A DNA stretch of 35,112 bases, from assembly GCA_003169195.1 (NCBI GenBank), contig PMQB01000201.1:1-35112 (forward strand). Direction: 5' to 3'. The translations under genes were made by a program, and so were the position numbers. Origin of the DNA: Bryobacterales bacterium (GTDB lineage Bacteria > Acidobacteriota > Terriglobia > Bryobacterales > Bryobacteraceae). The notes beneath the pieces are model-generated. The model was not told the DNA's origin. It worked only from the letters and a program-made list of their open reading frames with translations, and made no database searches. Positions 14,106 through 30,940 of the stretch are shown one piece after another; positions within the stretch are counted from its first letter, which is position 1; each line of letters opens with the position of its first letter.

Positions 14106-15125
14106 CTAACTTCCGACGAGTTGTGCGTAAAGGCTTCGGGCAATGCCCACGTCGGTGGTCCCCTTTACGATGGCGCGGCCATCCGGGAAAAACGTCACAT
14201 CATACTTCGGTACCGACAGACGCAAGGCGAATTCGTTGACGCGGACGACGCCCCTGGGACGGAGCCGCTCTGCCAACGCCTGCAAATCCAAGGGACGGGC
14301 GTTGTCATGTAATTGCACGGCGTTTCGCCCACATAGGCTCACTGGTGTGCGCTTGCGACCTTCGAGATATTGAAACTCGCCGGCAGCGCAAACGCGGCAG
14401 GCTGGATCAGCCGGACCTGCGACGACACGCTTGTACGTACCTTGCCAAACATCCATAGTGTGAATGAAGGAGGCAAAATCGTCCCAACCGGCGAGCAACC
14501 GCATAACTAGCGCCACCTGCAAGGCAGCCACCGAAGCTGTCACGGGCGCGATCACGCCGTTTACATCGCAGGTGGGCTGAATGCCGGGGGGCGGCTCTGG
14601 ATAGACACAAGCCAAACAGGGCCCTTTTAGGGGGACAATGGGCATGACCACGCCATAACTACCCACGGCGGCCCCATAAATCCAGGGCCGTTTCGATTTG
14701 ACGCTAAGATCATTGATGAGATATCGCGTCTCAAAATTGTCCGTGCCATCGAGAATGATGTCGAAATCTGCTGTTAATTCTTCAGCGTTCGACGGCGTCA
14801 TATCTTTGACCAGCGGCTCAATTAGAACGTGAGAATTGATTTGTTGCAAACGCCGTGCGGCCGCCATCGCTTTGGGAGACTCATTTTGAGCATCAGACTC
14901 GTCGTAGAGCCACTGTCTTTGCAGATTTGTGTAGTCCACGTAATCGCGATCAATCAGCCGCAGACGGCCGACGCCGGCGCGAGCCAGGGCCTCCGCTTGA
15001 AAGCTTCCTAGTGCGCCGCAGCCGACAATACAGATCGATGCTTGCCCGATCCTTTCCTGTCCAGCCACGCCCAGACCAGGGAAGAGGATCTGCCGCGAAT
15101 AGCGTTCGTTCTCGGCGGCTGTCAT
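14106..15125 (-). CDS. moeB: ThiF/MoeB-family adenylyltransferase
   Basis: '[65 protein letters not shown]', '[16 protein letters not shown]', two CxxC pairs ('CLAC', 'CRVC'). ATG at 15125 with upstream AGGA. Confidence 0.9.
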
Positions 15126-15142
15126 ATAAGACGATCCTAGCA

Positions 15143-18097
15143 ATGCTGGCGTGTCTTCCGGTGTTTGCCCAGCAGTCAAGCCCAACGCTTTTGCAGGAAG
15201 CTTTGAAATACGAAGGCCGCACGGTGGTGAGCTTGGAATTCGAACCTGAGGACCAACCGCTGGCCAAGGCGGATCTTACGAAACGAGTTCCGCTGCATGT
15301 AGGCGAGCCGTTTCACGAACAGTATCTGCGAGCAGCATTGCAGAATCTTTATTCCTCTGGCCGTTATGCGGATTTGGCGGTGGATGCACGCGACGAAGGT
15401 GCCGGGGTGGCGTTGCGTTTCGTTACCCAGCGCGCGTACTTTGTGGGGAGAATTGAGGTTCTGGGCGTGAAACAGCCGCCGAATGAAGGTCAGTTGTTGA
15501 GTGCTGCTAAATTGCGAACCGGCACTCTTTACTCTGCTGCCGACCAGAACCAAGCGATTGAATCGCTGCAGATCCTTTTGCGGCAAAACGGTTTCTACGA
15601 CGCCGACGTAAAGGCCGAGGTTGAATACGAACCGGAATGGGAAGAAGCGCACGTTAGCTTCAACATAGAGCCGGGGCAGCGCGCGCGTTTGGAAATGCCG
15701 GCCATTAGCGGCAATACAAGTAGATCAAACGCCAGTATCGTGCGCGCCACGCATTGGAAGCGGCTTTATGGTTTTTTGGGCTTGGGTTGGCAGCCGGTTA
15801 CGAGTGCGCGCGTCATTACAGGTTTGGATAATGTCCGCCGCTACTATGAGAAGCGTAATTTGTTGCAATCGAAGGTAACGCTGAGCCGCTTAGACTATCA
15901 CGAGGACTCCAACACCGTTGAGCCTTACATCGATATCAAAGAAGGCCCGCGCGTGGCTGTCGTCGTACAAGGCGCTCATATTGCCCAAGCCAAGCTGATT
16001 GAGCTGGTTCCGATGTTTCAAGAGCACTCTATTGATTCGGACTTGGTGACCGAGGGCGATCACAATATTGAGCAGTATCTGGAATCGCAGGGTTACTTTG
16101 AAGCGGAAGTCTCGCACTCCATCACCGATGGAAAAGACGCTAGCGAACGAATTGTGACGTATATAGTGGAACGCGGCAGCCGGCACAAACTGGTTTACCT
16201 GGGAGTTACGGGCAACCATTATTTCCCGGATGAAATGATTCGCGAACGTCTGCAGATTGAACCGGCCCGATTGCCGCGCTATCCGTATGGCCGATTTAAC
16301 GAATCGTATTTGCGACAGGATGTGCAGGCGATTCAAAGCCTATATGTCTCAAACGGTTTTCGCGATGTGAAAGTCACTTCGCGGGTAGAGGACGATTATC
16401 ACGGTGGCTCGAACCATCTGGCCGTGTACATCGAAATCGTAGAGGGGCGGCAATGGTTTGTGAGCGATTTGAAGTTGGAAGGCGCGGTGGAAACTGACCG
16501 GAAAACAGTGGAAGACCTGCTTGCTTCGTCAAAGAATCAGGTCTACAGCGATGCGAGCGTTTCGCTTGATCGTGAAAATGTTTTGAATTACTACTATGGC
16601 CACGGCTATCTGAATGCGGCTTTCGATTACTATCCCACGCCATCTCCCGAATCGTCACGCGTAGACCTTCGATACGTAGTGAAGCCAGGTCCGCAGACCT
16701 TTGTGCGGAATGTTTTGGTGACCGGATTGGATACAACGAATCCGAAGCTGGTGTTCGAACGGATGGAATTGAAGAGCGGCGAAGCGCTTTCTTTAGCGAA
16801 GGAAATTGATAGTCAGCGGCGGCTGTATGACCTCGGCATTTTTTCGCACGTGACCACGGCCGTGCAGAATCCGACGGGCGATGAAGAAGATAAATATGTT
16901 CTTTTCGACGTGGACGAAGCGCGCCATTATTCGTTTACATTTGGATTTGGCGCGCAGATCGCGCGGATTGGCGGTGGCATTACGAGCCTGGACAATCCCG
17001 CTGGCAGTACGGGCTTTACGCCGCGCGTGGCCGTGGGCCTCAGCCGTAACAATCTTTTCGGTTTAGGACAGACGCTGGGCCTACAAACGGCCGCCTCTAC
17101 CATTGAGCAACGCGCTGCTCTGACCTACTTCATTCCGCATTTCATTTCGAACGATAAATTGAGCTTGACGACATCGGTTCTGATTGAGAACTCCAATGAC
17201 ATTCGCACTTATACGGAACATCGGCGTGAAGGATCAATTCAGCTTTCGCAGCGGCTTTCGCGTGCGTATACCTTTCAATACAGAATTGCTTATCGGAATA
17301 TCACGCTCTCAAATCTGAAAATCGATCCGAATGTGGTGCCAGTGTTGGCGCAACCAGAAACGGCCGGCGTGGCTAATTTTACGATCATCCAGGATAAGCG
17401 TGATAACCCGACCGATGCGCATCATGGCGTCTACACAACTCTTGATCTTAGTTATGCCCCCGGCTTTTTGGGCACGCAAACCCACTTCGCCCGGGGTTTG
17501 TTTCGCAATTCGACGTATCACTTGTTCGGTCGCGATTTGGTCTTCGCCCGCAGCACGCAATTCGGGCTAATTCAGCGGACTGGAGGCAAAAATGATTCTG
17601 CTATCAACGATAGCAACCCTATTCCACTGGCTGAGCGCATCTATTCGGGCGGTTCTACTTCGCTGCGTGAATTCCCGGATTTCCAGGCTGGACCACGAGA
17701 TCTGACAACAGGGTTTCCGATTGGCGGTAACGCGCTTTTTGCGAATACATTTGAGCTGCGATTCCCTTTGCTTGGTGACAACTTGGGAGGCGTATTGTTT
17801 CACGACGCAGGGAACGTTTACAGTTCGATTCAAGATTTCAGCCTGCGCTTTCGGCAACATAACTTGCAGGATTTTAACTATACCGTGCAATCGGTCGGAT
17901 TTGGGTTCCGTTACCGGTCGCCGATTGGTCCCATTGGGTTGGATTTTTCCTTCAGTCCTGACGCGCCGCGCTTTTATGGGTTGAAGGGTACTGAGCAGCA
18001 ACTGTTGGATTGCCCGACATCAAAGATCTGCTTGCCCTCGGTGACGCAGAAAGTCAATGCCTTCCAATTTCACTTCTCGCTGGGGCAGGCGTTCTAA
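15143..18097 (+). CDS. Omp85/BamA-family outer membrane assembly protein with multiple POTRA domains
   Basis: Serial POTRA-like units and a C-terminal barrel with 'LAERIYSGGSTSLREFPDFQAGPRD..GGNALFANTFELRFPL' and a terminal F ('FQFHFSLGQAF'). The start is uncertain: ATG 15143 gives a very short signal peptide; CTG 15119 would give '[19 protein letters not shown]'. The upstream ORF extension to 14855 is antisense to moeB. Confidence 0.92.
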   Translation: MLACLPVFAQQSSPTLLQEALKYEGRTVVSLEFEPEDQPLAKADLTKRVPLHVGEPFHEQYLRAALQNLYSSGRYADLAVDARDEGAGVALRFVTQRAYFVGRIEVLGVKQPPNEGQLLSAAKLRTGTLYSAADQNQAIESLQILLRQNGFYDADVKAEVEYEPEWEEAHVSFNIEPGQRARLEMPAISGNTSRSNASIVRATHWKRLYGFLGLGWQPVTSARVITGLDNVRRYYEKRNLLQSKVTLSRLDYHEDSNTVEPYIDIKEGPRVAVVVQGAHIAQAKLIELVPMFQEHSIDSDLVTEGDHNIEQYLESQGYFEAEVSHSITDGKDASERIVTYIVERGSRHKLVYLGVTGNHYFPDEMIRERLQIEPARLPRYPYGRFNESYLRQDVQAIQSLYVSNGFRDVKVTSRVEDDYHGGSNHLAVYIEIVEGRQWFVSDLKLEGAVETDRKTVEDLLASSKNQVYSDASVSLDRENVLNYYYGHGYLNAAFDYYPTPSPESSRVDLRYVVKPGPQTFVRNVLVTGLDTTNPKLVFERMELKSGEALSLAKEIDSQRRLYDLGIFSHVTTAVQNPTGDEEDKYVLFDVDEARHYSFTFGFGAQIARIGGGITSLDNPAGSTGFTPRVAVGLSRNNLFGLGQTLGLQTAASTIEQRAALTYFIPHFISNDKLSLTTSVLIENSNDIRTYTEHRREGSIQLSQRLSRAYTFQYRIAYRNITLSNLKIDPNVVPVLAQPETAGVANFTIIQDKRDNPTDAHHGVYTTLDLSYAPGFLGTQTHFARGLFRNSTYHLFGRDLVFARSTQFGLIQRTGGKNDSAINDSNPIPLAERIYSGGSTSLREFPDFQAGPRDLTTGFPIGGNALFANTFELRFPLLGDNLGGVLFHDAGNVYSSIQDFSLRFRQHNLQDFNYTVQSVGFGFRYRSPIGPIGLDFSFSPDAPRFYGLKGTEQQLLDCPTSKICLPSVTQKVNAFQFHFSLGQAF

Positions 18098-18732
18098 TGA
18101 GGCTGTCCTGGCTCTTTATCTGTTTGGCGGTTTTGTTCAAGGGTGAGGTCATCGACCGTTTGGCTATTGCCGTAGGCAACCAGGTGATTACGGAACTGCA
18201 ACTTGATGAGGAGTTGCGGGTGACTGCCATGCTGAACCACAAGCCGGTGGTGCGGAGCCTGGAGGAACGGCGTGAGGCGGCGGACCGGCTGGTGGAGCAA
18301 TTGCTGATTAAGCTGGAAATGCAATTGAGCCGCTATGCTCTGCCGGATGCGAGCGAGGTGGACAGATACTACCAGCAGATTGAAGAAGCGAGCGGCGGTG
18401 CGGCAGAACTCAGTAAAACGCTGAGCAGCTTCCATCTCACCGCGGCGGTTTTGCGCAGCCATCTGGAACTGCAACTGACGGAATTGCAATTTATTGGGGT
18501 TCGCTTCCGCCCGGATGTGAACGTTTCGGATGGAGATGTGGAGGCGGCTTATCAACGCCAGGTGGAGGCGTGGCGAAAATCTCATACCGGGCAGCCGCCT
18601 ACCTTTGAGGCCTCTCGTGAACCGCTGCGCGCGATGCTAGTGGAAGAGCGGACGGATGCCGCGCTCAATACCTGGTTGGGCGAGAGCCGGAAGCGCGTGG
18701 CTTTGATCTATTTCGATAAAGGGCTGGAATAG
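18097..18732 (+). CDS. SurA N-terminal-domain-like periplasmic chaperone lacking a PPIase domain
   Basis: ATG overlaps the upstream TAA (TAATG); signal peptide; 'VIDRLAIAVGNQVITELQLDEELRVTAML', 'RREAADRLVEQLLIKLEMQ', SurA_N-like. No parvulin motif is visible. Confidence 0.75.
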   Translation: MRLSWLFICLAVLFKGEVIDRLAIAVGNQVITELQLDEELRVTAMLNHKPVVRSLEERREAADRLVEQLLIKLEMQLSRYALPDASEVDRYYQQIEEASGGAAELSKTLSSFHLTAAVLRSHLELQLTELQFIGVRFRPDVNVSDGDVEAAYQRQVEAWRKSHTGQPPTFEASREPLRAMLVEERTDAALNTWLGESRKRVALIYFDKGLE

Positions 18733-18734
18733 AC

Positions 18735-21700
18735 ATGAAAAGTAGACGCAAAACAATTTGGAAAATTGCCGGCATTACGGTGGGCGTTTTGTGTCTATTG
18801 GCCGCGGCGTTTCTTGTTGTTCTGCAGTCCTCGTGGTTTCGTAATGAAGTGCGTAAACGCATTGTGACGCAGGTGGAAACGGCTACGGGCGGCAAGGTGG
18901 AGATTGGCGCATTCGATTACGATTGGCGGAAGCTCACGGCCGATTTACAAGGCTTTGTGATTCATGGCACGGAATCTCCGCCGGCGGCGCCGCTGCTACG
19001 GGTGGAGCGATTGCTGATTACGGTGAGGGTCTTCTCGATTCTAAAGCGCACGGCCGACTTTTCTTCCATCATTTTGACTCGTCCACAAGTCAATCTGATT
19101 GTGGCGGCCGATGGATCAACAAATCTTCCTACGCCGCCGCTGACACGGAAGAAAAATCCCAATCCGATTGAGGAATTGTTCGCGCTGAAGCTGAATCACT
19201 TCATCATTACCGATGGGTTGGTGGTGGTGAATGATCAACGGATTCCGGTGAATGTGCGCGGCGAAGGCGTGGCGATGGTGGCCAGCTATTTCAAAGCGGG
19301 TCCTAGCTACGGTGTGTCGATGTTTTCGCGCCAAGTTGACTTAGGCTTCGGCGATATGCTGCGCGGTCCTTTGCAACTCAATGTCCAAGCTTCGCTCGGC
19401 CAGGATCGTATTTTGATTCGCAATGTGGCGTTCACTGGCGCTGATTCTCGATTGCTTGGGAGTGGCATACTCGAACATTTCGCGCATCCGCGGGTTGATT
19501 TTCAAGTTGATGCCGCTTCAGCCACGAAAGAAATACTGCCTGTTGTTAGGGTGACAAACATACGAGGAGGCAAGCTGGCGGTGCATGGCGCTGGTCACTA
19601 CGATGAGAGCGCTGGCTGGTCTTTTAGCGGCAAAGCCGAGGCGCAACAAGCTGCCTTTGAATCACAAGCGGTGACGTTGAAGAATATTAACGCTGCGGCG
19701 GACGTGGACGCCAAACGAAGCGGCGTGGTTTTGCATCGCGTTGTTGCCACTACCCGCGGCGCTAAATTTACGGGCGAAGCTGCGATCAAGAATTACCGCA
19801 ACTTGTCTTTCGATGGGAATCTCAATGGTCTTACGCTCAACGAGGCAGCATCGTTCTTTACGAACAAGCCTCTGCCTTGGCAAGGAGCCGCAAGCGGCCG
19901 CGTACATGGCTCCGGCGTTCTTGGTGCACGGGCCAATGATTTTGCAGTGCAGGCCAATCTGTCTATTGTGTCCTCGCCTACGGGCATTCCTGTTTCCGGA
20001 GTAGTTGATCTGAGTTATCTGCAAAAAACGAATTCACTCGATTTTGGTCAATCACATCTTAACTTTCCTCACTCGTCTCTTTCGTTTGCGGGCTCGCTGA
20101 GCGGGCAGAATCAGGTGACGGTGGACAGTAGCGATTTGAATGACTTGCAACCGATTGTGAGTCTGCTAAACCTAACCATGCCCAGCGACGCGTGGCCAGT
20201 GTTGTTGCAGAATGGCAGCGCGCATTTTGATGGCACGGTTAGCAATTTGTTAAGCAGTCCTACATTCGATGGCCAAGCTGCTGCTACGGCCGTGCGCGTA
20301 GAAGGACAGGTAATTGACCGACTTACGGCGAAGTTTAACGCCAGCGGCAATGGAATTGATTTTGCGTCACTCGATTTGCGGCAAAACGACACACGGCTAA
20401 ATGGCACAGGCCTGATTGGGTTTACGAATTGGAAGGTGCAGCCGGATTCGCCGCTACGCGCCGCTGTGGCTATTCATGGGGTTGACGTGGGTAAACTGGC
20501 GGCACAAATTCCGAAAATTGAGCTGCCGATTATTCATGGCATTGCCTCCGGCTCGTTGCAGTTACGCGGTACTTTCAGCCAGCCGGAAGGAAGAGCGCAC
20601 ATTGCCAGCGATAGTTTGGACGCATATGGTGAGCGCCTGAACCAAGCCCAATTCGACGCTGACCTAACGGGAGACCATTTGCATGTTTCCAATGGACGTG
20701 TAGTATCGGGCGCGGCTGTGCTCGGTTTTTCAGGCGACTATGAACATCGGTCGGGGACGTGGAGTAGCGGGCAAGCGCGTGTGAAGGTGGACAGCAATGG
20801 GTTTCCTCTTGCGAGCCTTTCGCCGGTACGTAAGTTCGAGCCGGCTTTAAATGCGCAGGCTGAGGTTCACTTTGAAGGCGCCGCAACGGTTGCGCCAGGA
20901 AAGTTTGAACCTACGGGCGCTACCGGCACGATTGAGCTGTCGAATGTTACGTGGAACAAAGTGCCTTACGGGAGCTTGACGTTGCAGAGCGAAACACACG
21001 GGCAATCGGTGGAGGCGGTGATCAGTGGGGATTTGCGCAAGAATCCGCTGCACGGAACGGGCACTCTGGACTTAGGGCCCGGCAATCGAACGCGCGTCGA
21101 AATTAATTTGGGCCGTGTCACGTTGACCTCGCTCTATTCGCTTACCGGAGCAGAGAAGCCGCCACTCTTCGATGGGTTTATGGCCGCGCAAGTGCGCATA
21201 GACGGGCTGTTACAAGATCCTTCGCAGATGCGCGTTTCGTTCCGGTCAGATCAATTGCAGCTTTCGTCGCAATTGAATCAGAATCTGCTTGAGAAATCGA
21301 AAGGCCCTGTCGTTTCGCTGCATAACTCGGGCCCGCTGCTGATTGATTTCTTCAAAGGCGTGGCCACGGTGCGTAGTCTTCGTATCGAAGGCGATCAAAC
21401 CAGCTTAGCCATAACAGGCACAATTCCTTACAACGAACGCAAAGCTATGGATTTACAAGTGGCCGGCTCAGTCAATTTGCAGGCCTATCATTTGTTTGAT
21501 CCCAATGTGGAATCGTCGGGCATTTCTATAATTTCGGCTGCTGTGGGTGGAACTTTGCACGACCCCACAGTGAATGGGACGCTCGAAATCAAAGACGGCA
21601 CCTTCTTTCCGGAGAACATACCGAACGGACTGAGCGCGGTGAACGGCACTTTGAGTTTTACGCGCAATCGAGCCACGCTTCAGAAAATGACGGCCAAATC

Positions 21701-22739
21701 GGGTGGCGGCGAACTGGCGTTGGGCGGATTTCTGAGCTTCGGCGGTGGTGGACCACTTGTCTATCACCTGGAAGGCTCGGCCGACAACGTGCGCGTTCGC
21801 TACGCGGGCAGCATCAGCGTGACGGCCAGTTCAAAACTGCGCCTCAGCGGCAGTAGTACGAACAGCTTGCTGTCTGGGACGCTCACGATATCGCGAGTCG
21901 TTTTCAATGCAAACACCGATGTGGGAAATATTCTGGCTGGCTTAAGCGCCGCCAACGCCGCGCCTGGGAATGAAAACGAATTTCTGAGCGGGCTGCATTT
22001 GGATGTTGTCATCGAAAGCGCGCCGAATCTGCAGTTGAGTACGTCGCTGAGTCGCGATGTGGAAGCGGAGATCAATCTAAACCTGCGAGGCACGCCGGAA
22101 CACCCGGTATTGTTGGGTAATCTAGCAGCAAACCAGGGCGACATTCAAGCATTCGGCACTCGCTATAGTATTAACCGCGGCGAAATCTCCTTTGCTAATC
22201 CCGTTAAGGTTGAGCCTGCGCTGGATCTCGATCTGGAGACGCGCGCGCGCGGCGTTACCGTGGATATCACAATTTCCGGTACGTTCAGCAAACTGAATAT
22301 TGCTTATCGATCCGACCCGCCCTTGCAGCCGCGCGAGATTATCGCTTTGCTGGCCGTTGGCCGGGCACCCGAATCGATTGATGCCACCCGCAATCTTCGG
22401 ACGAACGATACCAGTACTTTGCAGTCGGGTGCGAACTCACTGCTTGGTGCGGCAGTAACATCTCCCGTGACGAATCGCTTGTCGAAACTGTTTGGCATTT
22501 CGAATATCCGGATTGATCCATTGGTCCAAGGTATTACGAACACACCGCAGACCCGTGTCACACTGGAACAGCAGATCTCGCGCGACATCACCATTACCTA
22601 CATCACCAATTTGTCGCAAACCTCGGAGCAGATTTTCCGTTTCGAATGGGCGTTCAGCCGGCAGTTTTCGGTGGTGGCACTACGTGATGACAACGGCGAA
22701 TTCGGTATCGATTTCCAATACAAGAAGCAGTTTAAGTAG
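18735..22739 (+). CDS. TamB-family translocation/assembly protein (DUF490)
   Basis: N-terminal TM anchor, AsmA-like start ('VEIGAFDYDWRKLTADLQGFVIHG'), long beta-repetitive body, TamB C-terminus ('LLGNLAANQGDIQAFGTRYSINRGEISFANPVKVEPALDLDLETRARGVTVDITISGTFSKLNI', 'LKSDPPL'-like 'YRSDPPLQPREIIALLAVGR'). Confidence 0.93.
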   Translation: MKSRRKTIWKIAGITVGVLCLLAAAFLVVLQSSWFRNEVRKRIVTQVETATGGKVEIGAFDYDWRKLTADLQGFVIHGTESPPAAPLLRVERLLITVRVFSILKRTADFSSIILTRPQVNLIVAADGSTNLPTPPLTRKKNPNPIEELFALKLNHFIITDGLVVVNDQRIPVNVRGEGVAMVASYFKAGPSYGVSMFSRQVDLGFGDMLRGPLQLNVQASLGQDRILIRNVAFTGADSRLLGSGILEHFAHPRVDFQVDAASATKEILPVVRVTNIRGGKLAVHGAGHYDESAGWSFSGKAEAQQAAFESQAVTLKNINAAADVDAKRSGVVLHRVVATTRGAKFTGEAAIKNYRNLSFDGNLNGLTLNEAASFFTNKPLPWQGAASGRVHGSGVLGARANDFAVQANLSIVSSPTGIPVSGVVDLSYLQKTNSLDFGQSHLNFPHSSLSFAGSLSGQNQVTVDSSDLNDLQPIVSLLNLTMPSDAWPVLLQNGSAHFDGTVSNLLSSPTFDGQAAATAVRVEGQVIDRLTAKFNASGNGIDFASLDLRQNDTRLNGTGLIGFTNWKVQPDSPLRAAVAIHGVDVGKLAAQIPKIELPIIHGIASGSLQLRGTFSQPEGRAHIASDSLDAYGERLNQAQFDADLTGDHLHVSNGRVVSGAAVLGFSGDYEHRSGTWSSGQARVKVDSNGFPLASLSPVRKFEPALNAQAEVHFEGAATVAPGKFEPTGATGTIELSNVTWNKVPYGSLTLQSETHGQSVEAVISGDLRKNPLHGTGTLDLGPGNRTRVEINLGRVTLTSLYSLTGAEKPPLFDGFMAAQVRIDGLLQDPSQMRVSFRSDQLQLSSQLNQNLLEKSKGPVVSLHNSGPLLIDFFKGVATVRSLRIEGDQTSLAITGTIPYNERKAMDLQVAGSVNLQAYHLFDPNVESSGISIISAAVGGTLHDPTVNGTLEIKDGTFFPENIPNGLSAVNGTLSFTRNRATLQKMTAKSGGGELALGGFLSFGGGGPLVYHLEGSADNVRVRYAGSISVTASSKLRLSGSSTNSLLSGTLTISRVVFNANTDVGNILAGLSAANAAPGNENEFLSGLHLDVVIESAPNLQLSTSLSRDVEAEINLNLRGTPEHPVLLGNLAANQGDIQAFGTRYSINRGEISFANPVKVEPALDLDLETRARGVTVDITISGTFSKLNIAYRSDPPLQPREIIALLAVGRAPESIDATRNLRTNDTSTLQSGANSLLGAAVTSPVTNRLSKLFGISNIRIDPLVQGITNTPQTRVTLEQQISRDITITYITNLSQTSEQIFRFEWAFSRQFSVVALRDDNGEFGIDFQYKKQFK

Positions 22740-22745
22740 GCACCT

Positions 22746-23045
22746 ATGCGTCTCCGCGCCGAGAAGAACAAACTCAAAATCGAGCACAGTATTATTGACG
22801 GGCTGCGGCCTGTACTAGAGCGCCTGCTGCGCGATAACGAGGAGATCCGCAGCATCATTCCGGGTGTGATTCGCCAAGTGCGCGACGCCAAAGGCCTTCC
22901 TGCGATTCGCATTACAGTGCCAACGACTAATGGCTGGAAAGGGATTGCGCTAAGCGCGGGTGCCCGCCAAGAACTTTTTATCAGCACTGCGGCCGGCAAA
23001 GACGAACTGGCCGCCATGATCAAAGCCGCCTTGGATAATGGTTAG
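22746..23045 (+). CDS. Small conserved-looking protein (possibly DUF2103-like)
   Basis: Starts 6 nt after the tamB stop; 'KIEHSIIDGLRPVLERLLRDNEEIRSIIPGVIRQVRD'. The family assignment is a recollection, not a search. Confidence 0.65.
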   Translation: MRLRAEKNKLKIEHSIIDGLRPVLERLLRDNEEIRSIIPGVIRQVRDAKGLPAIRITVPTTNGWKGIALSAGARQELFISTAAGKDELAAMIKAALDNG

Positions 23046-23069
23046 ATTACGCGTAATTTTGCCATCACG

Positions 23070-24932
23070 GTGACTCTTTTTTGTTGTGCGCCCGTTCTGT
23101 TTGCGGGAAGCGTGACGTTCAACAGAGACCTCGCTCCTGTTGTGTATTCGCGATGCGTAGCATGTCACCACCAAGGCGGCAGCGGGCCCTTTCCGTTGAT
23201 CAGCTATGAAGACGTAGCGAAACACGCTGCACAGATCGTAACCGTGACATCGAGCCGCTACATGCCGCCTTGGCCGCCTGAGCACGGCTATGGCAAGTTT
23301 GTGGGTGATCGAAGCCTGACGGCGGAGCAGATTGCTTTGTTTGCGCACTGGGTGGAGCAAGGCAAGCCGCGCGGCGAATCGGCCGATTTGCCGCGGGCAC
23401 CGCGCTTCACCAGCGAGTGGCAAATGGGTCCGCCGGATTTGATTTTACGGATGGCCGAGCCTTTCCACGTGCCCGCGGACGGCGGCGATATCTTTCGCAA
23501 TTTCGTTTTGCCGAGCGGAGTTAATCAAGTGCGTTATGTGCGTGGTTTCGAACTGCGCATGAGCAATCCGCGCGTAGTGCACCATGGCAATGTGGTGTTG
23601 GACCGCACGCATTCCCTGCGAAAGCGCGACGGTCAAGACGGCCAGCCCGGTTTCGCTGGCATGGACGTGATTACCGAGGCGGCGGCCGACAATTTCGAGC
23701 CCGATTCGCACTTTCTGTTTTGGAAACCGGCCACGGTATTACGTCTTGAGCCGGATGACATGTCATGGCGACTTGATCCTGATACGGATCTGATCGTGAA
23801 CCTGCACCTTCGACCCATGGGAAAGGAAGAGCAACTGCAAGCGGAAGTGGGTATCTATTTTGCCGACCATCCGCCGACTCGGCATCCAATGCTCGTACAA
23901 CTGGAGCACGATGGTGCCTTACGCATTCGGCCTGGGACAAAGGATTTCGTGGTGACGGATGAATTGACTCTGCCCGAGGATGTTCAGGTGCTTGCGATCT
24001 ACCCGCACGCCCACTACCTGGGCAAACAGGTGGAGGCGTGGGCCACGTTGCCCAATGGCGAGCTACGCTGGCTGATCCGCATCAACGACTGGGATATCAA
24101 CTGGCAGGCAACTTACGATTACGGGACGCCCATTGATCTTCCCAAAGGGACGAAGCTCAACATGCGCATTCGCTATGACAACACGGCGGAGAATCCGCGG
24201 AATCCCAATCGCCCTCCCAAGCTTGTGGTGGCCGGCAATCGCAGCGAAGATGAAATGGGCCATGTCTGGCTGCAGTTGCTCCCGAAACAGAATGCCAGTG
24301 GCGAAGATCCGCGCATGGCGATTCAGGAGGCGGTGATGCGTCGCCGGTTAGAAAAGTATCCTGCTGATTTTCTCGCTCATTACAATCTGGCAGCTCTGCT
24401 GCAGATGCGCGGCAAATATGACGAAGCCGCGACTGTTTATCGCGCCGCTCTCAAAGCTGAACCAAGGAATGTGACTGCGCATAACAGCTTGGCAACAGTT
24501 CTGCTCCTGCAAGATAAGATAGCGGCGTCGATCGCCGAGTTTCGCGCCACTTTGCAATTGGATCCGCACTATTTGAATGCGCGTTATAACCTGGCGCATA
24601 CGCTGGCGACGAGCGGAGACTTGGCCGGAGCGCGCGAAGAATACACGCTGTTTTTGAACGAGAAGCCGGATGATGCGGACGCCCAGGCCGGCTTAGGCAC
24701 TATTGATTTCAAGCAGAGCAACTATGTGGATGCGCTGGTGCACTTTCGAGAAGCGGCGCGGCTCGATCCGCAAAATGCCGATATTCAAACAAATCTAGGA
24801 ACGCTGCAGGCGATCAAAGGTGATTTGCCAGCCGCCAAGAATGCCTTCGAAAACGCGCTACGTCTCAATCCGGCCAACCAAGCAGCGCGCGCGAACTTGG
24901 ATCGGGTAAACGCGCAATTACGGGGAAGGTGA
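23070..24932 (+). CDS. c-type cytochrome-like domain + PHM-like copper monooxygenase domain + TPR domain fusion
   Basis: 'CVACHH' (CxxCH) followed by 'MPPWPPE'; PHM-like ligand motifs 'RVVHHGNVV', 'VNLHLRPMGK', 'YPHAHYLGK', 'DEMGHVWL'; then 4-5 TPR units ('ADFLAHYNLAALLQMRGKYDEAATVYRAALKAEPRN' and following). GTG start at 23070; an alternative ATT at 23046 is possible. Confidence 0.85.
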   Translation: MTLFCCAPVLFAGSVTFNRDLAPVVYSRCVACHHQGGSGPFPLISYEDVAKHAAQIVTVTSSRYMPPWPPEHGYGKFVGDRSLTAEQIALFAHWVEQGKPRGESADLPRAPRFTSEWQMGPPDLILRMAEPFHVPADGGDIFRNFVLPSGVNQVRYVRGFELRMSNPRVVHHGNVVLDRTHSLRKRDGQDGQPGFAGMDVITEAAADNFEPDSHFLFWKPATVLRLEPDDMSWRLDPDTDLIVNLHLRPMGKEEQLQAEVGIYFADHPPTRHPMLVQLEHDGALRIRPGTKDFVVTDELTLPEDVQVLAIYPHAHYLGKQVEAWATLPNGELRWLIRINDWDINWQATYDYGTPIDLPKGTKLNMRIRYDNTAENPRNPNRPPKLVVAGNRSEDEMGHVWLQLLPKQNASGEDPRMAIQEAVMRRRLEKYPADFLAHYNLAALLQMRGKYDEAATVYRAALKAEPRNVTAHNSLATVLLLQDKIAASIAEFRATLQLDPHYLNARYNLAHTLATSGDLAGAREEYTLFLNEKPDDADAQAGLGTIDFKQSNYVDALVHFREAARLDPQNADIQTNLGTLQAIKGDLPAAKNAFENALRLNPANQAARANLDRVNAQLRGR

Positions 24933-25941: not shown

Positions 25942-26820
25942 TCAGCGATGCTCCATGCCCTTCAGCTTTTCGAGCACCGCGCGCCCTTCGTCTTTCTGCC
26001 CCGCTGCTATCAGCGTTTGGCCCAGCAGATAGGTGGCGGCATAATTATTCGGATCGAGCGTCAAGGCGTGCCGCAAAATGCCTTCCGCATTCACGTAATT
26101 CGCGGTCTTGAAATAGCACTTACCGAGCACAATGTAGGGTCCACTGAAATCGGCATTTAGCCAAATGGCTCGTTCCAGATTCGGAATGGCGACGGGCCAT
26201 TTTTCTTGCCGTGCCAAAATCTCCCCAAGCCGGTACCAGGCCATAGAGAAATTCGGATTGATCTCAATCTCCTTGCCCATTTCGGCGAGTCCTTCATCGA
26301 GCGACGCGTGAAAGACGGCGATTTCCCCAAGCATGAAGTGCGCGCCCGGAAGTTTCGGGTCGAGCGCGAGTGCCTTTCGCGCTTGGGCCAGCGCATCTTC
26401 TTCGTATTCGCGCTTCAACATGAGTTCCGCCGCAAGCAGATGCGCGGCGGGCGAACTGGATGGCACCGCAAACAGACGCGCAAAGGCGATTTCTGCCTTA
26501 TCAACATCGCGCGTTTGCATGTAAGCGTTGCCCAACATGTAATTCACTTCTACGTTAGGCACGGTTTTCTCAAGCCACAAGATCGCCTTGGCAGGCTGCA
26601 GTAAAGAGAAATAACTCTGGCCGATGTACAGGGTGGATTGCGCGTAGGCCGCCGAATGCGGATCTTCGCTTTGCACTGCTTTTTCCAAAGCGGCAATCGC
26701 TTCGGGATATTTCTTTTGATCGTAAAAATCGGTACCTTGCTTGTGCAAGTCGCTTACCGTTTCGGCGTAACAAAAACGCGGCGCGACGAACAACAGCAAT
26801 ACCAGCCATCGAGAATTCAA
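25942..26820 (-). CDS. Exported TPR-repeat protein
   Basis: Tandem TPRs ('KLPGAHFMLGEIAVFHASLDEGLAEMGKEIEINPNF', 'FSMAWYRLGEILARQEKWPVAIPNLERAIWLNADF'). TTG at 26820 with AGAGG upstream gives the signal peptide 'MNSRWLVLLLFVAPRFCYA'; the ORF track extends to 26913. Confidence 0.82.
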   Translation of the reverse strand: MNSRWLVLLLFVAPRFCYAETVSDLHKQGTDFYDQKKYPEAIAALEKAVQSEDPHSAAYAQSTLYIGQSYFSLLQPAKAILWLEKTVPNVEVNYMLGNAYMQTRDVDKAEIAFARLFAVPSSSPAAHLLAAELMLKREYEEDALAQARKALALDPKLPGAHFMLGEIAVFHASLDEGLAEMGKEIEINPNFSMAWYRLGEILARQEKWPVAIPNLERAIWLNADFSGPYIVLGKCYFKTANYVNAEGILRHALTLDPNNYAATYLLGQTLIAAGQKDEGRAVLEKLKGMEHR

Positions 26821-26931
26821 ACTCTGCGACCTCTTTTTCGGATTGTCCCACGCCCGATCAGCAAAGAAAAAGGCTACCGCGCGGGGAAGGCGCGGCAGCC
26901 AGAAATGCTTCAAAATGAATCGAAAGAGCGA

Positions 26932-28114: not shown

Positions 28115-30940
28115 GTGCCCGAAATGCGCAGAAACTCTACCTCTACCCAAATCTCGATTCTTACGATCTTTATCCTTACTTTGTCTTTCGTCGTTTTCTG
28201 GCCAAGCGCGTCCGCGCAAACGCCACAACAAGCGGCGCGCATTGATCCAAACGCACAAGCCATTGATGAAGATCGCGGAGCCTCCGGCCTTTCGCGCGCC
28301 TTAGCCGCCATTCGTACCCGCGCCAGTATCCTGATGATCACTGCGCATCCCGATGACGAAGATGGCGGCATGCTGGCTGCGGAAACGCGCGGACGGGGCA
28401 CACGGGGCGCGCTGCTCACCTTGACCCGCGGCGAAGGCGGCCAGAATGCCATGTCTGTCGATATGTACGACGAACTGGGCTTGGTGCGCACGCAAGAATT
28501 GCTACAGGCCGATCGCTATTACGGTGTTGATCAATATTGGGGCAGCGTCATTGATTACGGCTTCTCCAAAACGCGCGAAGAAGCGATTGAGAAGTGGGGC
28601 TACGATCGAGTACTGTCGGATGTCGTGCGCGTGGTGCGCATGACGCGTCCGCTTATCCTGACTTCCAGTTTTGTCGGTGCGCCCACCGATGGTCACGGCA
28701 ATCACCAGGTGGCCGGACAGATGGCGCAGGAAGCTTTCAACGCCGCCGCCGATCCTAAGTGGTTTCCGGAACAGATTCGAGAAGGGTTGCGTCCGTGGGC
28801 TCCGGCGAAGGTGTATGCGCGCGTGCCCTTTTTCGCTCCCACCAAAGACAAAACCATCTACGATTACGCGACCGACAAGTACGTCCCCATTCGCTTTCGC
28901 AACTACGTAGACAACTCCTGGATCAACGAACGTCCCGCCACCAATCTGGAAATTCCGGAGGGCCGTTTCGATCCCACCGTTGGTCTGACCTATATGCAGA
29001 TTGGCCGCACCGGCTGGGGCTTTCAAAAGACTCAGAACGGCGGCGGCACCACTCCGCCGGAAGGCATCTACAGCGCTACCTATCATCGCTATGGATCGCG
29101 TGTTGATGGAGCAGCCAAAGACAGTACGTTCTACGACGGCATCGACATTTCATTAGCGGGCATCGCTTCACTTGCCCAGGGCGACACTGCCTTTCTGAAA
29201 CACGGATTGCAGGGCATTTCACAAGCGGCGGACGAAGCTTCCGACAAATACCGCCCTGCCAACCCCTCGCAAATTGCGCCATTCTTGGCCGATGGGCTCA
29301 AACAGACACGCGACTTGCTGGGTGCGGTGAATAGTAGTTCTTTGGCCGAGCCCGGCAAGAGCGATGTAGCGTTCGAACTTAGCGTCAAGCAGCAGCAATT
29401 TGAAAAGGCGCTGGCGCTGGCTTTGGGCATTTCGTTTGACGCGGTTGTCGCGCCCGATAAGGAGCCGGATAATCGCTTCGGTGGTGGGCAGGCGGTCACA
29501 TTCACCATCGCCATCCCAGGGCAAAAATTTGCTGTGCAAGCGAGTCTGCACAACAATGGTGCGCAAGATGTTGCAGTGGAAGATATTGCGGTTGTGCCGT
29601 CCGATGGAAAGGGCTGGGTGATCAAGACGGACAAGCCAGCGGCTTCGGCGCTCGCTGCCGGTACCGAAAGCAAGCTGAAATTTTCGATCGTCGCGCCCGA
29701 AGATGCCACGCTAACCAAGGCCTACTTCACCCGCCCGAACCAGGAACAACCCTATTACAACCTAACCGACGAACGCTTTCGCAACTTGTCGTTGGCACCT
29801 TATCCGCTGAGCGCAGCTGTTCGTCTCAACTTCAACGGTGTGCCGTTTTCGCTGCGCCGCGTTGTTTCTGCAAATCAGCGGTTGGAAGGCATTGGCATTG
29901 TGGAAGATCCACTGCTTGTAGCGCCGGCATTATCGCTTTCGGTTACACCGTCGGCCGGCGCCGTGCCTCTTACCTCCACGTCGTTCACTTTCACTTGCGG
30001 ACTTCGCAGCAACGTGAAAGGGCCCGCGAAGGGTTCGGTTCGCTTGCGCCTACCAGCCGGTTGGGAGTCTTCGCCCGCCCAAGCGCCTTTCTCATTCGCG
30101 CGCGATGGCGACAGCGAAACCATAACCTTCGAAGTCACGCCGCATGGTTTGAAAGCGGGCGATTACGAAATCCGCGCAGTCGCCGACTACGACGGCAAGA
30201 CCTATGAAGAAGGCTTTCGCTTGGTTGGCTATGCCGGTTTACGCCCGTACCCCAGCTATCATGCCGCTACCTACAAAGCGGTCGGCGTGGATGTGAAGAC
30301 TGCACAAAATCTGCATGTGGGCTTCCTTCCGGGTACAGGTGACGACGTGCCCCGCGCTCTTGAAGACCTGGGCGTTCAACTGCAAACGCTATCTGCTTCC
30401 GATATCGAAACGGGCGACCTCTCCCACTTTGACGCTATTGTTCTCGGCGTTCGCGCTTATGCAGTGCGGCCGGAATTGCGTGCGGCCAACGGCCGCCTGC
30501 TGAGCTACGTGAACAACGGCGGCGTTCTTATCGTGCAGTACAACGTGCAAAACTTTGATCCCAATTACGGCCCTTACCCACTCACCGTTGGTAACGCGCC
30601 GCGCGTAGTGGACGAAACGTCCGAAGTGAAGATATTGGAGCCGCAGAATCCCCTCTTCAATTGGCCCAACAAAATCACGACCGCCGATTTTAGCGGTTGG
30701 CAAGAAGAGCGCGGTCACGGTTTTCTGCAGAAGTGGGACGAGCATTATCTGTCGCTCATCGAAACACATGATCCTGATCAGGATCCGCAAAAAGGCGGCC
30801 TCTTGCTGACACGCTATGGCAAGGGTTTCTACGTTTACAATGCGTTCGCACTATACCGCCAGCTTCCGGAAGGTGTGCCGGGCGCGTATCGTATTTTGGC
30901 CAATCTCGTCAGCTTGGGCAAGAATCCCGGCTGGCGTTGA
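28115..30940 (+). CDS. PIG-L/LmbE-family deacetylase with long C-terminal extension
   Basis: 'ILMITAHPDDEDGGMLAAETRGRGTRGALLTLTRGEGGQNAM' (AHPDDE) and 'GHGNHQVAGQMAQEAF'; C-terminal Rossmann/GATase1-like 'FDAIVLGVRAYAVRPELRAANGRLLSYVNNGGVLIVQYN'. The start may be ATG 28124. Confidence 0.9.
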   Translation: MPEMRRNSTSTQISILTIFILTLSFVVFWPSASAQTPQQAARIDPNAQAIDEDRGASGLSRALAAIRTRASILMITAHPDDEDGGMLAAETRGRGTRGALLTLTRGEGGQNAMSVDMYDELGLVRTQELLQADRYYGVDQYWGSVIDYGFSKTREEAIEKWGYDRVLSDVVRVVRMTRPLILTSSFVGAPTDGHGNHQVAGQMAQEAFNAAADPKWFPEQIREGLRPWAPAKVYARVPFFAPTKDKTIYDYATDKYVPIRFRNYVDNSWINERPATNLEIPEGRFDPTVGLTYMQIGRTGWGFQKTQNGGGTTPPEGIYSATYHRYGSRVDGAAKDSTFYDGIDISLAGIASLAQGDTAFLKHGLQGISQAADEASDKYRPANPSQIAPFLADGLKQTRDLLGAVNSSSLAEPGKSDVAFELSVKQQQFEKALALALGISFDAVVAPDKEPDNRFGGGQAVTFTIAIPGQKFAVQASLHNNGAQDVAVEDIAVVPSDGKGWVIKTDKPAASALAAGTESKLKFSIVAPEDATLTKAYFTRPNQEQPYYNLTDERFRNLSLAPYPLSAAVRLNFNGVPFSLRRVVSANQRLEGIGIVEDPLLVAPALSLSVTPSAGAVPLTSTSFTFTCGLRSNVKGPAKGSVRLRLPAGWESSPAQAPFSFARDGDSETITFEVTPHGLKAGDYEIRAVADYDGKTYEEGFRLVGYAGLRPYPSYHAATYKAVGVDVKTAQNLHVGFLPGTGDDVPRALEDLGVQLQTLSASDIETGDLSHFDAIVLGVRAYAVRPELRAANGRLLSYVNNGGVLIVQYNVQNFDPNYGPYPLTVGNAPRVVDETSEVKILEPQNPLFNWPNKITTADFSGWQEERGHGFLQKWDEHYLSLIETHDPDQDPQKGGLLLTRYGKGFYVYNAFALYRQLPEGVPGAYRILANLVSLGKNPGWR

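Follow-up and report, generated by a model that had tools for sequence, protein, structure and literature searches.

Introduction

What does a bacterial protein do when one polypeptide carries a c-type heme motif, a copper domain of the PHM/DBM type and a row of TPRs, and does the position of its gene behind bamA and tamB say anything about its substrate? The question is raised by a window of 35,112 nucleotides from a Bryobacterales bacterium (GCA_003169195.1, contig PMQB01000201.1), which is the whole stretch of DNA analysed here. The open reading frame in question lies on the plus strand (23070..24932, 620 aa) and is real. Peptidylglycine alpha-hydroxylating monooxygenase (PHM) and dopamine beta-hydroxylase (DBH), which in animals serve hormone amidation and noradrenaline synthesis, are the standard examples of uncoupled two-copper hydroxylases, known mainly in eukaryotes. 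One study of double jelly-roll proteins calls PHM widespread in eukaryotes (PMC8812541). The three-part protein proposed in the preliminary description (a CVACH heme motif, the PHM/DBM copper set and TPRs) is confirmed by Pfam, by conservation and by the AlphaFold2 model.

Start codon and export

The listed GTG at 23070 makes a poor start for this protein. It is absent from the nearest orthologue (L058, 85% identical), and translation from it would leave a truncated signal peptide. No ATG, GTG or TTG that gives a full signal peptide was found in the window gene or in L058. An ATT at position 23046, directly after the stop codon of the upstream DUF2103 gene, would yield the full signal peptide, and L058 has ATC at this place. 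Because the GTG is unconserved and truncates the signal peptide, the real start is probably the non-standard ATT, as far as the two sequences can tell. Read from this likely ATT, with the start codon thus inferred, the probable signal peptide region is ITRNFAITVTLFCCAPVLFAGS (23046..23114, plus strand). We read the protein as exported, and its likely location is the periplasm.

The copper domain retains the fold and metal sites of PHM

The middle of the protein (about residues 118–408; 23421..24293, plus strand) forms a PHM/DBM-like double jelly-roll according to the AlphaFold2 model, Foldseek and hhalign. Pfam recognizes the Cu2_monoox_C domain in the window protein (27 bits against a cut-off of 23) and finds no match there to the N-terminal Cu2_monooxygen model. 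The AlphaFold2 model, computed from residues 15–620 with 58 homologues, has a mean pLDDT of 92.6 and a pTM of 0.86, and it contains the two jelly-rolls expected of a PHM fold. Compared with the PDB by Foldseek, this part of the model gave a whole series of PHM entries, the best at E 8.1e-12, as well as human DBH (4zel, E 4.9e-11). These matches span about 320 columns at 14–17% identity with an rmsd of 5–9 Å, so the two jelly-rolls may pack differently from those of PHM. PHM was missed when the cytochrome–copper region was searched against the PDB as a sequence profile, and came up only through the comparison of folds and the direct alignment of profiles. When the family profile was aligned with rat PHM by hhalign, using a PHM sequence verified against its PDB chain, the E values were 1.5e-8 (local) and 6.9e-11 (global).

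The full PHM/DBM ligand set claimed earlier from the sequence is borne out by the global alignment, in which all six copper ligands are paired. All six codon positions lie on the plus strand. For the CuH site, H171-H172 (23580..23585) correspond to PHM H107-H108 and H246 (23805..23807) to PHM H172; for the CuM site, H313-A-H315 (24006..24014) correspond to PHM H242-x-H244 and M396 (24255..24257) to PHM M314. The paired motifs of the family and of rat PHM are VHH and VHH, LHL and VHY, HAHYLGK and HTHHLGK, and DEMGH and DEMCN, respectively. Thus, the double jelly-roll, the order and register of the six ligands, and the DEM and HxHxLGK motifs are common to PHM and this family. Conservation among orthologues holds as well: H171, H172, H246, H313, H315 and M396 are invariant in 59 of 59 aligned homologues. 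Together with the heme-domain residues C29, C32, H33 and M65, they are also invariant in a wider, order-wide alignment (n = 18) that extends to a second family of the order and to a paralogue without TPRs in the same genome. From these sequences and the model, both the CuH and the CuM site are predicted to be loaded with metal.

The PHM substrate pocket is replaced

Although the fold and metal sites of PHM are kept, its substrate pocket, read from the alignment, is not. In rat PHM, we take R240 (carboxylate-binding), N316 and Y318 to be the residues that hold the peptide substrate; at their positions, every one of the 59 homologues has Tyr, His and Trp, and the position of PHM Q170 is Asn in the same alignment (n = 59). 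The cysteines of PHM are also missing, as the copper part lacks Cys altogether in 52 of the 59 homologues and has one or two in the remainder. The family thus differs from PHM in its fused c-type heme and TPRs, in its lack of disulfide cysteines and in its substrate residues. DBH carries a DOMON domain and disulfides in addition to the same catalytic fold, whereas the window protein has the cytochrome and the TPRs instead. These differences bear on one possible reading of the protein, a bacterial peptidylglycine hydroxylase that makes amidated peptides. The fold and ligand set are those of PHM, as such an enzyme would have them, but the absence of the PHM substrate residues and disulfides makes peptide amidation unlikely. 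Moreover, no gene resembling the lyase (PAL) was seen among the window genes searched or the recurrent neighbours identified. We consider this reading highly improbable.

A fused c-type cytochrome domain

The N-terminal part of the protein (residues 15–97; 23112..23360, plus strand) is identified as a c-type cytochrome domain by conservation and by cytochrome profile matches. It contains the heme motif C29-V-A-C32-H33 (23154–23168) and the likely distal ligand Met65 (23262–23264), both on the plus strand, and none of these four residues (C29, C32, H33 and M65) varies among the 59 aligned homologues. The CxxCH motif directly follows the first helix, and the family has a Met in an MPP motif that aligns near the axial Met of cytochrome c6; both features are shared with class I c-type cytochromes (c6, cbb3-type). 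Here, the counterpart is a fused domain whose Pfam score falls below the cut-off: the window protein scores below threshold for Cytochrome_CBB3, but this model is matched at E≤0.01 by 49 of the 52 N-terminal domains of homologues. The PDB sequences nearest to the domain profile are nearly all cytochromes c, each match being individually weak (E 0.06–1). A Foldseek search with the isolated cytochrome domain model gave no significant structural match. Judged from these sequence features, heme is very likely attached to the N-terminal domain, and the c6 alignment makes M65 the likely axial ligand.

A probable His/Met heme c constantly accompanies the complete CuH/CuM pair, which suggests the heme as a stand-in for ascorbate, and direct delivery of electrons from the fused heme to copper is plausible from this anatomy. 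A structural or sensory heme, with the copper enzyme reduced by another donor (ascorbate-like or quinol), is the alternative to this deduced electron route. It fits less well with a heme domain that is fused in every aligned family member, the TPR-less one included, and we regard it as rather unlikely.

The C-terminal TPRs

Strong Pfam TPR matches cover the C-terminal part of the window protein (residues 415–620; 24312..24929, plus strand), and its matches in the Foldseek comparison with the PDB were TPR proteins. The number of repeats, first put at four or five, is five in the AlphaFold2 model, which shows them as tandem 34-residue helix pairs with one extra helix flanking either end. Short family members have no TPRs, so the repeats appear dispensable for the chemistry.

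The bamA–tamB neighbourhood reflects a relocation

In the window, the gene follows the order bamA–surA'–tamB–DUF2103, all on the plus strand. By Pfam and neighbourhood comparison, bamA (14855..18097) and tamB (18735..22739) are neighbours in the window clade only. The same is true of the short surA-like frame between them (18010..18732), which has no Pfam match and whose listed start, inside bamA, is uncertain. The DUF2103 gene (22746..23045) belongs to the older bamA–surA'–tamB cluster and is an inconstant neighbour: of the ten same-genus genomes described below, one (G002) lacks it, and in another (G011), about 1.4 kb separate it from the cytochrome–PHM–TPR gene.

This position had been taken as a hint that the protein modifies surface or outer-membrane proteins, a linkage expected to recur in other genomes. 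It does recur in ten genomes of the same genus, where tamB is found a short way upstream of the orthologue, and the heme–copper regions of these and of the window protein are 64–84% identical. In five of the ten, those with contigs reaching far enough, bamA is also visible. The linkage nevertheless occurs only within a single clade of this genus, and other members of the genus have the gene away from the cluster. In the tree, the tamB-linked copies form a single clade (support 100/100, eight rows tested), and copies linked to a redoxin-like gene are among the rows that lie closest to this clade. The bamA–surA'–tamB–DUF2103 cluster was seen directly without the gene in G024 (L156), and tamB–DUF2103 adjacency without it was found, by coordinates, in several more genomes of the bacterial family. 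Conversely, the orthologue in G008 (L041) adjoins a ThiF/MoeB-like gene, with no bamA or tamB beside it. The four-gene cluster behaves as a single block, present without the cytochrome–PHM–TPR gene in G024 and absent beside it in G008. Because the linkage is restricted to one clade, and because the cluster occurs without the gene and the gene without the cluster, the placement behind bamA/tamB is a lineage-specific relocation. Co-transcription with the cluster may occur in the window clade.

If the enzyme served only to modify outer-membrane proteins and were co-expressed with BAM/TAM, this could explain why tamB adjacency is retained in the window and in ten genomes of the genus. Constant linkage to bamA/tamB, as such a role would imply, is not what the comparison shows, and the same exceptions in both directions speak against it; we consider this role very unlikely. 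Synteny and the tree led us to reject a functional linkage to BAM/TAM, and modification of outer-membrane or surface proteins is unsupported. Two further genes lie downstream in the window: a TPR protein on the minus strand (25942–26913), relatives of which recur near the copper family in other genomes, and a 941-aa PIG-L deacetylase fused to NPCBM-associated repeats (28115–30940).

A redoxin-like gene is the recurrent neighbour

Across the wider family, a different gene recurs. Among 70 other loci with enough upstream sequence, 37 have a gene for a thioredoxin-fold, redoxin-like protein adjoining the family gene. It lies upstream on the same strand in 35 of these 37, within 220 bases in 34 of the 35, and seven such genes overlap the family gene by 4 bases. 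Whole-genome matches gave a similar picture, with 15 of 19 compared redoxin–family pairs adjacent on the same strand. The redoxin-like protein has the motifs DCPISNRY, TPEAAVF and GRID..Y and a VGC near its end, with a conserved Cys in DCPISN and a second Cys near the C-terminus. One example, an uncharacterised partner, is encoded at L066:9441-9950. This gene of the Redoxin/AhpC-TSA superfamily is thus adjacent in about half of the relatives and encodes a separate protein; no redoxin–copper protein fusion was found in 13 long or paralogous loci. In the window clade the redoxin neighbour is absent, and the window genome has a single redoxin-like frame, unlinked and with a sequence gap. Other genes found repeatedly in the vicinity of the family encode CRTAC1-type (FG-GAP, ASPIC/UnbV), TPR and Oar-like outer-membrane proteins.

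A thioredoxin-fold neighbour with these two cysteines raises the alternative of a copper-handling or cytochrome-assembly factor, in which the PHM fold and the redoxin-like partner would carry copper, the TPRs would dock a client and no hydroxylation would take place. The many paralogues per genome are compatible with such a factor, as are the TPRs, which cytochrome assembly proteins commonly contain. On the other hand, both mononuclear sites are complete and invariant, catalytic-type Met included, and a pure chaperone would need neither a CuM/CuH pair nor a fused heme. We give copper handling without catalysis a minor but real chance.

A large family in Acidobacteriota

Members of the family were found in 49 of 60 relatives, with up to 17 matches per genome. 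In a profile search of 247 genomes sampled across Acidobacteriota, 53 had members, often with many paralogues, the paralogue counts being lower bounds. The host is itself an acidobacterium of soil: all but two of the 80 nearest loci come from records that carry the name Acidobacteriota or that of one of its subgroups, and the closest are labelled Bryobacterales; no relative was found among plasmid records. Three forms occur: short proteins without TPRs (about 420–460 aa), cytochrome–copper–TPR proteins (mostly 550–760 aa) and proteins with an extra N-terminal region. In L138, L139, L140 and L141, roughly 280–330 extra residues stand N-terminal to the heme domain, and a single 1389-aa open frame (G265:C35:347288-350230) contains two tandem cytochrome–copper units. 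In the members read, the heme domain always accompanies the copper domain, whether TPRs are present or not. The cytochrome–copper region is not covered by any NCBIfam model, and most members therefore probably bear no annotation beyond that of a TPR or cytochrome protein. No published study of the family was found in the open-access literature searched.

Proposed function

The explanation that we favour, by a little better than an even chance, is a two-copper monooxygenase with the PHM/DBM fold, exported and probably located in the periplasm, that receives electrons via its own heme c. Electrons from a periplasmic respiratory or redox pool would reduce the His/Met heme c, possibly with the help of the redoxin-like partner that is usually encoded upstream in relatives; this partner might supply electrons, deliver copper or shield the site. 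The heme would then pass electrons to CuH and on to CuM, where two His and one Met would activate O2 and hydroxylate a C–H bond of the substrate, a reaction proposed from the anatomy of the protein. The substrate would be something other than a peptide with a C-terminal glycine, and the TPRs may serve as an accessory arm that docks a partner or substrate protein.

In its broader form, the proposal is of an unstudied, large bacterial family of PHM-type hydroxylases in soil Acidobacteriota. The place of ascorbate would be taken by a fused heme c, supplied with electrons either from the respiratory chain or from a dedicated thioredoxin-like partner, and the substrates would be periplasmic or extracellular; the chances of this being right fall somewhat short of even. 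If it is true, a bacterial family that has many copies and carries its own heme donor would offer a tractable test of how electrons enter and cross between the two copper sites. It would also point to an oxidative chemistry so far overlooked in a phylum that ranks among the most abundant in soil, and it would bear on the origin of the eukaryotic PHM and DBH enzymes.
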